Below the pieces are notes generated by a model that saw nothing but the letters and a program-made list of their open reading frames with translations, was not told where the DNA came from and did not search any database. Below are positions 3,849 to 64,000 of a DNA stretch of 64,000 bases, one piece after another. A program made the position numbers and the translations under genes. The stretch comes from Spongilla lacustris (taxonomy: Eukaryota; Porifera; Demospongiae; Spongillida; Spongillidae). Location of the stretch: positions 3,902,673 through 3,966,672 of the forward strand of contig OX442426.1 of assembly GCA_949361645.1 (NCBI GenBank), in the 5' to 3' direction. Numbering within the stretch: position 1 is the stretch's first letter; the number at the start of each line of letters is the position of its first letter.

Positions 3849-4236
3849 GGTCTGGGTACGAGACTAACTTGGAACGAGGTTCATTCCAATGTTACGCCAC
3901 ACCCACTGGAGGGAATAATTATATGGCGGCGAATGGCGTGTTTCGTGCATTTTGTAGCTGAAAGGAACGTTTTAGTTTTTTCGAGCGCAAGCTGCGGGGT
4001 GGGCAAGCTAATAACTCTATAGAAAACGAGTCATTTTATTTTTATCTGAAGAAGCTAATAACCTTACTTGTCCCATACTTAGAAGGCGTTGGTAGCGGGC
4101 GAACAAATAACAACGTGTTTTTCAGTGAAAACATGCTTGAAACATGCATAATAGCCATCCGCCGCCATAGAATTATTCCCACCTGTGCGTGTGGCGTATC
4201 ATTGGAATCTACCTCGTTCCCAGTCTCTATGCATGC
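3849..4236. mobile_element. Non-autonomous terminal-inverted-repeat element, about 390 bp
   Basis: The left end (gagactaacttggaacgagg, then attccaatgttacgccacac and ggaataattatatggcggcg) is the imperfect reverse complement of the right end at about 4147-4236. The arms are about 85 bp and enclose about 200 bp of non-coding sequence. No transposase is present, so it is MITE-like. Target-site duplications were not resolved by eye. Confidence 0.7.
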
Positions 4237-57938: not shown

Positions 57939-60740
57939 ATGGATTGGTTAAGTTTGACCCAGAAGCTTGGATCGTTGTCGACGAATTGCTGCATCAAAAA
58001 ATTGCTGGATTTAGCTACGCAGTCGGGTTGGAACCATGAAGATGCGCGACAAATGTTTGCGGAAGGCTATGTGTGTTTGACGTGCTATCGTACTGTTGAA
58101 AAGTGCTCATCTTTGGAGAGTGTACTCCTTGCGAAGCTTTCAGGACGAGCCAATGATCCCAGCGCGCTTGAGAGCAGCGGTACAAAAAGAAAAGCTACGC
58201 CAACTGAGCACGCTGCTGCAGTTAAAGTGGTTAGTTTTAATCGTTTATCTCATTTATACTGTACGCATGTTTTATATTATCCTGTTATAGGTTGTTACGG
58301 CGGAGGCAGGCTACAAAAAGACTTACACCTTGTCTCCTTCCAAAGAAGCTCTTGGAAAGTCTTTAGGCCGCAATTCTAGCAATGCATTGATGAGGCATGC
58401 TTCTCACGACCAAACATTGAAACAATCCATGCTTCAAGAACTGTGTAGGATGTTGCGAGCTGAGATGACAGCTCTGTTGGCTAGTCCAGATTTTATGAAG
58501 AAAGATGTGAACTCGTTAAAGAATTTCTCATGGGATGGCTTATACTACACAATGAAAAACAAAGCCCCTACACTGGTTGAGTTACTTCAGTCCTGCATTC
58601 CTCAAAGCAGCACTAGGAAGAAGTTCATCATGCATGGTCATGTGTGCCGCAATGCTTGCTGCAACACATAAGCGCTGTACATCAGTTCTGTGCAAAGTTA
58701 TGTGTCCATTGTTTTGTATTTAGGGCATGCTGCAAAGCAGGTGAGCTTGTTATCACTAATACAGGTCAAATTGCATTTCTTAATGGTTATTTATAGGTGT
58801 ACAACAGGCTGCAGAAGCTAGGAATCTGTTTGTCAACTTTCATGACAAGGCGTATCATAGACCAGATGGGAGAAAACCATGACCAATGTGTTCTGGATTG
58901 GGTGAACAGCCTTAAATCCCCCATTTCAACAAATCAGGTTACTATTTGTGTGCTTTTTATATGGTCTTTAATGCTGACTTTTTATAGGGTTCAGTTGCTC
59001 GAATGCAGTTTGAAGGACTAGATAACTCTTCTGAGTATGGAAGTGAATCTGATGTCCCTTTCCCTCAGCCGCCACTTGAAGTTACTGTGTCACCTTGTTC
59101 AGATTCTAGTTCACTAGATGATTCATCGGAGACAAATTCACCAAAACGTCCAAATATGTCTCCGCTCAGCATGCAGTTGGAATCACCTATAATGGTAAGC
59201 TTTAAGTTGATGAATGATCAGTACCATTTCACAGAAATCTATGTTTTCATCTATTCACATATTATAGGAGGTGAACTGTTTCAAGGAAGTAGTCCTATCC
59301 CATCTCATCCTGTTCACTCACCTTCGTCAGAAAGAAATTCAGGTAGACATTAGGCTAAGTTAATGTAATGACAGATGTTTATTGTGCAGATGAATGTACA
59401 CTTCCTGGCTCTGAGAAAAGTGTGTCAGATCAACCTTCTTCAGATACAGTATCTGCATCTGAGGATGAAAGGTATCCCACCATTGGATGGTGTGGTTTTC
59501 GCATAGTTGGGGACAACATAGACAAGACAGTCAGACCTCGAGATATGCGACATAATCATCAGACCACTTCTTTACATTACTTTCATTCATATGCAGTGAG
59601 GGATAGAGTGGATGTCAGTGACTTATCAACAGAAGTGCCACTTGTAACTTCCAAAGATATGGACCTTAACATTTTTTTACCATCACCTGAAGACTGTCAA
59701 ACCTTGGAAACGAACTTCTGTACACTGATGATGAGAATACTAGTGAAGCACATTCCTGGGATTAGCCATCTGTCTTCCATGGTGCTACAGCATATTCCTC
59801 ATCCATACTCTGTTGCTATGTCAAAGAAGTCTGAAGTGGTATGCCTTAATATTAAAAACAATCTTGTTCTTACGATATTCTTATTACTTTATCTTACCTT
59901 CTTATTAAGGTCCCACTGGGAGTATTATTAAAGAATGAGAATAAGTTGGATGACATGATGGATATTCTTGATGGGTTACACAAGTACGTTCCTTCAATCA
60001 GAACAATTCAACAGTTTGAGGACCCGGCTGAAGACCCAAGTGGAGAACCAGAAGTTACAGACAGAGATAGATCACTTTTGTCAAATACTGATTGGTGGTG
60101 ACCAGGTGACTGCAGCTAGAGTGCGAGGCAGCCAGAGTATCCGCAGAAACTCTGATAACGGTAGAATGAGACTGGATGCATTCATTCCTGTTGTGGAAGA
60201 CTGGCACACAAAAATGTGTTTTATGCAGGTGACGTGGGTTCATTTACTTCATTTAAATTACATCAGTGTATGTGTCCCAATTCAATTCATCGTGCAGGTT
60301 ATATGGTCACATTTGTACAAAGCATGCATCCTCAACTCTGGATGTAGGTACTCTTTACCAACTTCAGATCCTCATCAACAGAAGAAATGTTACTAAGGAT
60401 GTCAAGAAGGACATGAATGCATGTGAGGACTTTTTGGAGCTGGTAACATCAAGTCATGTAATTGCAGCAGCACTGCATTCCGTTGGTGTTAGCAATGCAT
60501 CAGACTTTATGACAAACTTATCATCCTCTACACTTCCTTCAGATCAGCAGGCTGCTCTTGATTCACTAGTGAAGTCAATATGCAGAAAATTCATTAATAT
60601 AAGCTATCCATATAGAGCTGATGATGGTTTTGATCATGTACTGAAGTATGCCACGGAAGTTATGTCATTGGGTCTTCTTTACCTTGAGTTCAAGGATGCA
60701 GTTCGAGAGGGTGATGGTCCTCGTGTTCTTAGATGTTGGA
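57939..60740 (+). pseudogene. DUF6589-type gene, truncated and frame-shifted
   Basis: This belongs to a family of large, often multicopy proteins of unknown function in sponges, cnidarians and fungi. Blocks bounded by splice signals: 57939-58229 (Cys pairs, LLDLATQSGW, YVCLTCYRTVEKC), 58291-58620 (KNFSWDGLYYTMKNKAPTLV), 58797-58937 (VYNRLQKLGICLS), 58988-59194, 59268-59340, 59390-59838 (IVGDNIDKTVRPRDMRHNHQ and SLHYFHSYAVRDRVD), 59910-60228 (GGDQVTAARVRGSQSIRRNS and VVEDWHTKMC) and 60298-60740 (TLYQLQILINRRNV, MNACEDFLELV). These are the hallmark motifs of the domain. Frame changes occur near 58640, 60020 and 60320, and homology stops abruptly at about 60740, before the family's usual C-terminus. 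It is therefore probably a decaying copy. Sequencing errors are an alternative. Confidence 0.75.
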
Positions 60741-61295
60741 AGTTCAGAATACCTCTATCACTATTAGGCCTGGAAACAGAGTTACGGGTCTCCAGCAAAT
60801 TAAGAATTGTACTCATTTGAATTCAAATCTCCATAGACTTTCCATACTTCATTATTTTATGACGCGCGTCGCGGGTTTCAATTATTCATGTCCGCTATTT
60901 CTGGCCATGAGTTTTTGTTTTACGCATCCCATTCATTCGCGTACATTACCGATCGTTTTCGTGGTACTCTCAGGGAGATACATAATCGAACAAGTAAGAT
61001 ATCGTTGAAATGCAGAAATTTTGATCTTTCCAGTGGTATACAATGTATTCAATATTGCGGAAAAATTAATTAGAAAAAAATTGTCTACTACCTAACTGTG
61101 ATCAAATATAGTCGATCGTATTTTTTTGGCAATTGTATTGTTGTATGTAACGCTACTCGTATCATTACAAGGCAGAATCATGACCAGTTTATAATTGTCC
61201 ATAACCAAACCAGAAAACTACAGGAGCAGTTTAGATATATACGGTCAGTGTAAGACGTATAATTAGATATGAGAAAAAAATCTATTAAAAAGTAA
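60741..61295. other. Intergenic, nothing identified
   Basis: Two short open frames cross 60790-61070, but neither continues the DUF6589 motifs nor shows another domain. Confidence 0.45.
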
Positions 61296-61650
61296 CTAAA
61301 AACATTCTCTAACGAGAGAGTTGTTGGTATATAGGATTGACCAATGGTGGTGTGAAAAGCATGGAAACAAGAGTGACAGAATTTTTACTGGAAAATTGAA
61401 ATAGATGTGATGATGTAGTCTGCATGATAGTGTAGGATTACATTTGCCTTTACTGCGTCTTGAACAGCTAAGTTCAGAGCATGGCCATAGCAATGGGTAT
61501 AAAACGCTCTATGCTCTTTTCGAAGTATAGTAGTTGATACACCTGTTTTACAGCCTGCCATTGAACTAGCCACTGTCCATGACAATTCTGAAGTGAAAGG
61601 GATAACCTTACCAAAACGTTCGGATGATGCTTTCTGCAGAGATAAGAGTC
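61296..61650 (-). pseudogene. hAT/DUF4371-type transposase fragment
   Basis: The minus strand reads ELSWTVASSMAGCKTGVS, then KEHRAFYTHCYGHALNLAV. This is the RNase-H-fold region typical of DUF4371/zinc-finger-MYM-type hAT transposases (MSG-KTGV...YTHCYGHALNL). About 70 residues remain before a stop. The DNA downstream (61300-61375) resembles the outer arm of the 41.3-43.0 kb palindrome (ctctcgttagagaatg against ctttctcgatagagaagg). This may mean shared ends. Confidence 0.7.
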
Positions 61651-61920
61651 CATGCTGTGGACTAGTCTATACTCTACTCACGATCGACCGCTATCAATGA
61701 TTACAGCTGTACTGTATGTAGTTAATTCTAATTATACGAGATACGGTTAATATTTTCTCTCAAGGAAAATTTTTGGGGGGGCTCAAGCCCCTCCCTTGTC
61801 TACTCCTTGAATATTATTATTACGTGCCCGATACTATCTTTCGCTTTGTCGCCATGAAGCACGTGTCACATCATCATGTACATATACCGCAATAATTAAA
61901 TATTCATTCTCAATAATAAA

Positions 61921-62030: not shown

Positions 62031-62777
62031 TTCCTACGCATATGAATTTTGGGGACTATCCTAGCCACCATCACGAATTCACAGCGCAAGACACGGGAAC
62101 TGGTGCAGAACTGAGGGCGGCACATGAAGAGGCGGCTAATAGAGCAGCTAAGAAACAGGAGTGGCTTTATCGATGGTTCTTGTGAAGATCTCGCACCTAT
62201 ACTTTTACGGTACAGATATTCAATTAACATCTTATTGACACCTCAATTAATGACATAATACATTCCGCGATATTCTACCGCACGGCTTTTTCGAGATGGA
62301 CATTAGGTTGTTAATTAGAATACGTATGTATATTACGGTACAATTCTTATCCGGGTCCCATAGGAGCTCATTAAAATGTGGTTAATGTTCTAATCCCTAT
62401 TCTGTGAAGATGCGTTTACCATAAAATACCAATATATTTTTTAGCTGTTCTATATTCAGTTCGGCACTAAAAAACGTCAGTGCGCACTATTGAGGGATGT
62501 TCTTTTTTTGTCCACGAAAGTCGCGCATCTCACGGTTTATTCGTTTTTATTTTGCCACTCCTGAAGTACTCGAACGGCAACCAATTTTTCTTGAAAAAAT
62601 GCCTGAGAATCAGGTGTGAGATGCACCTTTTTGAAAAGATAGAGCCTTGCCCATTGTAAAGATATCAAGCTTATGTGCAGACTTATTTTCTGAAGCGAGA
62701 ACAAACCCCTCTATCCCGGACTAGCTAGTCATGAATAAAGCGGTATCACGTGCGCTCCGTGCCTTCGATACAAAGCG
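61651..62777. other. Repeat-rich spacer upstream of the RAG1-like gene
   Basis: A TG run followed by 16 G (61921-61952) and a run of about 31 C (62001-62031) flank 'gggggactatagtcccc', an inverted pair like the ends of short GC-rich elements. The rest (62050-62777) includes the presumed promoter of the next gene. I see no clear TATA box. Confidence 0.55.
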
Positions 62778-64000
62778 ATGGAATGTCAAGTGCAGAGATA
62801 CTGCAGGGTATGCGGACACCGGTTGTTGAAGAAAACGTCTCGAGGCAATTTAGAGACAACCTATAACTGTGCTGGTTTCTCTGTGGAGCTTAAAACATGC
62901 TTTCAAATTGACACCAGCAACGACACTGCTGACTATCCCGCCAATTTCTGCAAATCATGTAGGCTTGCTATGTCCAAGGCAAAAGAAGCGGCAGAAAAGA
63001 AGATTCCATACAAGTGTATGGTAAAGCCATACAACTGGTCTCTGCACTATGCAAGGTAAAACATATTCACATGACCTCATAAGTTTAATCACACATACAT
63101 AAACACATATACAGGAACCCATACACTCATGGATCCAATTAAAGGACATACATAAACAGAAACCAGGGCAACAACCAGGCATCACACCTAATGCCTTGCT
63201 TCACCATGTTACCACCATTGCACCTCCAAAGGTTGTGTGTCATAGAAAGGAACCACAGCTAGCCCCGACACAGGTACTTTCCGTCATGGACTTACTAACT
63301 TGCCCAATATGTAAAGGAATGTTGTCGCAGCCACTTAAGTTGCACTGCAATGCAGTAGTATGTGCAAAGTGCATTGCTGACTCCATAGCAACATCGGCAA
63401 GTACTCAGTGTCCATGCTGTGAGGATGCAGTGAACTTGGTGCCAGGTTCTGTGCAGCCTGCTCCTGACCTAACACAACGCCTTCTTTGTGATGTGATGGT
63501 GTCCTGTGATACATGCAATAGGGATGTACGGGCGGGTGACTATGACTCACACGAGTGCCACAGGTTGGGAGTTATTGAAGAACAGTGCGCTTCTAAGGTG
63601 ATTCGAAGAATCCTATCTGAAAACACAAAGGATAACATTATACAAATCAAGACAGGAGGTACTGTAAGTGACAAACAATTTTTTTATACTTACACTTATT
63701 CCCATCTTTTGCAGCCACTGACTCTGGTGCGTGTGACAAAGGCCCATTCATCCAAAAGTGAGGAGGTTTGCAGCAAAACTCTTAAGCGACGTGTCTGTGA
63801 AGTTCAAGGAGTAAGGAGCCTTCTGTCACCAGAAAGACCTGAAAGGATCCTTGAGGAGGAGATCAGAGCCCTGGGAAGTGAAGAGAAAAAAATGATACTA
63901 ACAGAAGCAGGGTTAACACTTGATATTGAGGCAACAACAGGACTTGCGATGAAAGCTGCAATTGGCATGCCTTGGAACCAACTTAGGACTTTAAGAAGGT
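62778..64000 (+). CDS. RAG1-like gene, 5' part, runs off the window
   Basis: Vertebrate RAG1 is the catalytic subunit of V(D)J recombinase, and its N-terminal third carries zinc-binding modules and a RING E3 ligase. Here the first exon (62778 to 63022 or about 63055) has YCRVCGHRLL, then FQIDTSNDTADYP, FCKSCRLAMSK and NWSLHYAR. This matches the order of the RAG1 N-terminal module (CxxC, F-ID-x-D, FCxxC, W-x-x-H). Exon 2 (63115-63663) has a basic linker, a RING (LTCPICKGM, LHCNAVVCAKC, CPCC) and a C/H finger (VSCDTCNRDV, YDSHECH), again in RAG1 order. Exon 3 (63715 on) has RSLLSPERPERILEEEI and GLAMKAAIGMPWNQLRTLRR, at the place where RAG1 begins its nonamer-binding region. The RING histidine after the third Cys is Ala (CNAVVC). 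The first donor is ambiguous: only GTAAAG after 63022 keeps frame. The catalytic core is beyond the window. Confidence 0.82.

Follow-up and report, generated by a model that had tools for sequence, protein, structure and literature searches.

A 64,000-nucleotide stretch of the Spongilla lacustris genome (hereafter the window; C13:3902673-3966672, forward strand, in an assembly of 248.6 Mb and 51 contigs) carries near its right end a gene whose product begins with zinc modules in the order seen in RAG1, the enzyme of vertebrate antibody gene rearrangement. We conclude that this gene almost certainly belongs to a Chapaev-superfamily DNA transposon of the cut-and-paste kind, here in a decayed copy. 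The element is 4571 bp long and occupies 62281–66851 on the forward strand, with 62281–64000 inside the window. Its ends, its 4 bp target duplication, its copy number and its domain order were computed, as was the predicted fold of a relative. Chapaev DNA transposons were reportedly described by Kapitonov and Jurka in 2007.

Termini and genomic copies

The family ends were defined from young subfamilies of the same genome (CACGG(T/C)TGT... and the like), and the pattern from these relatives, allowing up to three mismatches, places the left terminal inverted repeat, CACGGCTTTTTCGAGATGGACATTAGGTT, at 62281–62309 on the forward strand. Within the window the pattern matches once, and 100 shuffled versions give no match. 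The window copy has CAC...GTG inverted repeats with ACCG at both flanks, the left target site duplication lying at 62277–62280 and the right copy at 66852–66855, beyond the window. The initial annotation described an intron-bearing gene starting at 62778 with no transposon ends on the left; the introns are present and have GT-AG boundaries, but the left end is inside the window, 497 bp before that start. A perfect 16 bp inverted repeat (150–165 and 3942–3957 in the numbering of L009, the locus of the window copy) was considered as the terminal repeat and rejected, as it has no duplication and the family ends lie further out.

We examined 21 copies, taken from 150 scored matches to the RING exon. 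Both ends are present in 16 of these, and copies with readable ends have CAC...GTG termini. An exact 4 bp target duplication is found in 12 of the 16 copies with both ends, and none of the 16 has a duplication of 5 bp or more. Genome-wide there are at least 150 RING-exon matches and at least 116 DUF1280 segments over the cut-off, including that of the window copy itself. Two young subfamilies (L020–L025, and L013, L014, L026 and L029) share 97.8–99.6% identity over 4.3–4.6 kb, and open frames occur among copies that are 99.5% identical. Eight of the 21 copies have ten-intron models free of stops and frame breaks, seven of them with all three acidic motifs, and the frame of L011 is likewise open if the model skips inserted DNA. 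L014 (C4:4845000-4852000, minus strand), a young-subfamily copy that is otherwise open, reads GGEKGG, with E replacing the D of the first catalytic motif; activity would not be expected of such a copy.

Two positions interrupt the frame of the window copy, 63055 where exon 1 ends and 65985 within the last exon. Among assembly copies L010 is closest to it, and the model of L010 shows six stops and 11 frame breaks. The ratio of non-synonymous to synonymous substitution (dN/dS) is 0.15 between the window copy and L011 and 0.58 between L009 and L010, and is thus relaxed for the window copy against its nearest assembly copy. On sequence grounds, the lineage is one that evolved as a working transposase, with the window copy decaying afterwards. 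The initial annotation suggested a host-like copy; a domesticated RAG1 relative of that kind is very improbable. An intron-bearing gene with a complete RAG1-type N-terminus and purifying selection in its lineage would suit such a reading, but selection on an active transposase yields an equally low ratio between subfamilies, and the presence of both terminal repeats with their 4 bp duplication, the many copies in the genome, the two frame breaks and the relaxed ratio all contradict it. The frame breaks refute host gene status for the window copy itself, and another copy could still be domesticated.

Transposase gene and its resemblance to RAG1

The complete transposase gene is on the forward strand and has 11 exons coding for about 940 amino acids, with its 3′ end at ~66189 in window numbering; spliced models of 17 of the 21 copies (the window copy counted) have ten introns. 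The three exons at 62778–63998 are confirmed as real. Exon 1 (62778–63055) encodes a RAG1-type N-terminal zinc module, the Chapa module (CRVC...FCKSC...WSLH), and in the window copy has its frame break at the 3′ end. Exon 2 (63115–63663) encodes a linker, a RING finger (63301–63420; CPIC...CAKC...CPCC), a C-x2-C...H-x-C finger (63505–63558) that is colinear with the zinc finger following the RAG1 RING, and a segment behind that finger. Exon 3 (63715–63998) begins the transposase core (the DUF1280/RAG1-fold part). Introns 1 and 2 are 59 and 51 bp long, and the last bases of the window are inside the third intron. Past 64000, where the initial annotation had suggested that a catalytic core with aspartate, aspartate and glutamate (DDE) and flanking repeats be sought, exons 4–11 (64055–66189, window numbering) complete the core, contributing its D, D and E, in a predicted RAG1 fold, and terminal inverted repeats stand at both ends of the element.

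The N-terminal modules were compared with RAG1 by searching profiles against PDB sequences, using an alignment of five spliced transposases (A1: L013, L023, the window copy, L027 and L015), an 18-sequence profile (A3) and a profile of the N-terminal module alone (A4). The top match of the A1 profile is mouse RAG1 (E 3.3e-17) over profile positions 2–244, which take in all three zinc modules from the N-terminal one to the finger behind the RING; lower matches are the RAG1 RING structure 1rmd (1.3e-9) and, for the RING part only, TRIM5 (1.8e-7). The A3 profile matches RAG1 at 2.8e-32 and the isolated RAG1 N-terminal structure 21wb at 7.3e-15, and A4 matches RAG1 at 3.6e-9 as its sole match below E 5, the next, unrelated chain being at E 5. 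The Pfam profile RAG1_imp_bd matches three of the five A1 members, at best with 2.9e-4, short of the curated cut-off, and matches a coral relative (P0055) over the cut-off at 2.5e-7. A RAG1-type N-terminal similarity beyond chance is confirmed by these comparisons of sequence, and the RAG1 domain order of the initial annotation holds, with RAG1 the best match of the N-terminal profiles.

The histidine ligand of RAG1 (C-x-H-x2-C) is absent from the window RING. In the sponge RING rows looked at (alignments A1 and A2) this position is M, Q, A, K or T, whereas relatives from coral (P0055), starfish (P0052) and crinoid (P0044) retain H. The ligase function of the sponge members may be changed or lost.

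The core contains DUF1280 (PF06918) in all five A1 members, and PF12940 (RAG1) matches none of the five at E ≤ 1; by sequence the RAG1 core gives no significant hmmsearch score. All five rows have the acidic motifs GGD(K/R)GG, GD(Y/L)(E/D)F and GEQG(A/T)E, the last of which contains two E residues, either being a candidate for the catalytic E. They also share the C(2)C, LH and H(4)H signatures, as PCLxC, LHI and MH-x4-H. A RAG1 core fold is present in the predicted structure of a relative, and the core is modelled as an RNase-H-fold DDE domain of the RAG1/Transib kind.

Placement among Chapaev, RAG-like and Transib elements

Chapaev hallmarks, in the relevant passages of PMC4079192, are a 3–4 bp duplication and CAC...GTG ends, and part of the account in PMC4411706 (Kapitonov and Koonin 2015) has two Chapaev subgroups with a Chapa domain and, behind it, a RING, 'similar to RAG1'. 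The Spongilla element agrees with Chapaev in its CAC...GTG ends, 4 bp duplication and DUF1280 DDE core bearing the C(2)C, LH and H(4)H signatures, and with the two subgroups in having the Chapa module and RING ahead of the core. Every Chapaev feature looked for is present, and the element is filed there accordingly. Its distinguishing features are the sponge host, the ten introns (a number given for this element and not compared with those of other Chapaevs) and, in the sponge members, the RING without the histidine of the coral, starfish and crinoid relatives. The transposase chains would bind the CACGG... inverted-repeat ends, the D/D/E site would cut the element free and join its ends to target DNA at staggered positions, and filling of the four-base stagger by repair would leave the 4 bp duplication. 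Catalysis would probably not depend on the N-terminal zinc modules, whose role, by analogy with RAG1, would lie in dimerisation, nuclear import or ubiquitin ligation.

Several observations weigh against this placement. Four of the 16 two-ended copies have no duplication (L019, L023, L027 and L029), scoring for one was impossible in five of the 21 (L010, L011, L012, L017 and L018), and the end pairs were chosen partly by the duplication, though the chosen ends are the repeats of the family. The structure models were made on sister proteins from Ephydatia muelleri (P0001 and P0003) and not on the window copy, and the filing as Chapaev goes by termini, duplication, motifs and domains. For the RAG1-type N-terminus, the counter-evidence is that single sequences give less than profiles: window exon 1 reaches the RAG1 structure 21wb at only E 0.16, and RAG1_imp_bd on this exon (E 0.046) is outscored by a zinc ribbon (0.013). 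Exon 2 by itself ranks TRIM5 (5.3e-7) over RAG1 (9.7e-4), and a fold search with the RING and finger of the second model puts LNX1 (5h7r, 9.1e-4) slightly ahead of RAG1 1rmd (1.1e-3). These last two results would fit an unrelated transposase that acquired a common RING and came to resemble the RAG1 N-terminus by convergence. We give that explanation very little credence, since the N-terminal module profile finds RAG1 alone below E 5, and a single unbroken alignment to RAG1 accommodates all three zinc modules in order and spacing, with a RAG1-fold core behind them. The concern that TRIM- or TRAF-type RINGs would outrank RAG1 is borne out for the RING exon alone, where TRIM wins, and not for profiles of the N-terminal region, where RAG1 wins clearly.

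The Chapaev-type element resembles RAG1 of jawed vertebrates and RAG1L in domain order, N-terminal sequence and core fold, and it differs from them in its 4 bp rather than 5 bp duplication and in having no significant core-sequence match. RAGL/RAG1L transposons and Transib make 5 bp target duplications. There appears to be little room for a RAG2-type gene, with 497 bp ahead of the transposase gene and about 660 bp behind it (frames on the other strand were not searched singly), and a genome search with PF03089 (RAG2) gave no match, the controls being equally silent, so that it says nothing about absence. That the element is a RAGL transposon of the ProtoRAG type, a sister of RAG1 from which RAG2L has been lost, is highly unlikely, given 4 bp duplications in 12 of 16 two-ended copies and 5 bp in none, DUF1280 rather than PF12940 in the core of all five members, and a sole PF12940 match in the genome (E 0.018) that falls in a Transib-like piece. 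The element shares its catalytic fold with RAG1 and Transib, yet is not filed as RAGL.

The Transib-like transposase piece just mentioned (L030; C2:13146440-13146691, minus strand) matches HzTransib at E 4.8e-12 and PF12940 with 20 bits, below the cut-off, and the genome therefore has both Transib and Chapaev types. Our element differs from Transib in its RAG1-type N-terminal region and its 4 bp duplication; the pertinent sections of PMC7204232 and PMC8355894 report Transib without such a region, and PMC4411706, in its text on TransibSU, gives one example of a 5 bp duplication. The Aplysia transposon N-RAG-TP has a RAG1-like N-terminal region too, but is described in the corresponding part of PMC8355894 as having N-terminal-like sequence only, and by that description it is set apart from the sponge element, in which a core is present.

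Relatives are concentrated in another sponge. In the first protein search 45 of 57 homologues have Ephydatia muelleri names or EukProt names prefixed Em, which we take to denote the same species; the others come from a crinoid, a brittle star, a starfish, a coral and unnamed sources. A wider search with A3 found 88 proteins, mainly Ephydatia copies. These transposon relatives, the short introns and the genome size make a freshwater sponge host likely, in line with the probable sponge of the initial annotation. One annotated protein (P0002) is 97.0% identical to the protein of the window copy (828 identities over 854 aligned pairs), with 92 gap positions that are mostly stretches absent from the P0002 annotation, and it is not among the assembly matches listed (one at 98%, broken; the next at 79%). 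Querying proteins with the N-terminal region from coral gave six out of 511 candidates (the query included), none labelled RAG1, and 179 pattern matches in viral contigs include no relative.

There is dispute over where the regulatory N-terminal half of RAG1 came from. The relevant part of PMC8355894 puts forward an N-RAG-TP element, fused late, as its source, and the alternative, that this half was inherited with the core from a Chapaev-like ancestor, is set out in the corresponding passage of PMC4411706. The initial annotation had expected the gene to bear on this question; it does so, along a line already argued from Chapaev transposons in that 2015 account as far as its text on the subject goes. 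The kind of element is therefore known, and what is added is a sponge family, abundant and mobile in recent times, that has the whole RAG1-like order and extends the argument. We tentatively raise the possibility, which we consider rather doubtful, that no late fusion ever brought a Transib core together with an independent N-terminal element to make the two halves of RAG1, that transposons had all the parts in order (Chapa module, RING, C/H finger and RAG1-fold core) before sponges split from other animals, and that Transib and RING-less RAG1L represent losses. If so, the sponge family would be a survivor of that complete order, active until recently. Abundant, near-identical open-frame copies in a sponge carry the whole architecture down to the deepest branches among animals and are material on which the origin can be tested. 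Chapaev transposons transfer between species (PMC4079192, in its passages on the subject), so vertical descent is not given, and the sponge family by itself cannot choose between ancient vertical descent and horizontal transfer. A different origin story appears in PMC9435367, the relevant part of which claims RAG1/RAG2 homologues in a microalga, far outside animals. The titles and abstract starts searched contain no description of a Chapa-RING Chapaev in a sponge, although subscription journals and Repbase Reports were outside that search and one may have been reported.

Sequences flanking the element

A second Chapaev-like left end, CACGGCCGTTCCGTAATGGACATTAGGTTG, begins at L009 position 5664 (68191 in window numbering), 1.3 kb past the right end of the first element. 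Long near-perfect inverted repeats are present just downstream at L009 6784–6972/7221–7409 (189 bp, 99%) and 5457–5506/5527–5576 (50 bp, 98%), and are perhaps other mobile elements. A minus-strand open frame of 274 amino acids at L009 4625–5446 has weak cupin/JmjC similarity under the cut-offs and is possibly a host gene. Upstream of the element, a frame at 60257–60820 in the window matches DUF6589 (E 8.5e-13) and is an uncharacterised gene that is perhaps also mobile. A 93-residue minus-strand frame at 61385–61666 has no Pfam match over the cut-off and includes HCYGHALNLAVQDAVK, which is reminiscent of hAT-type transposase remnants.
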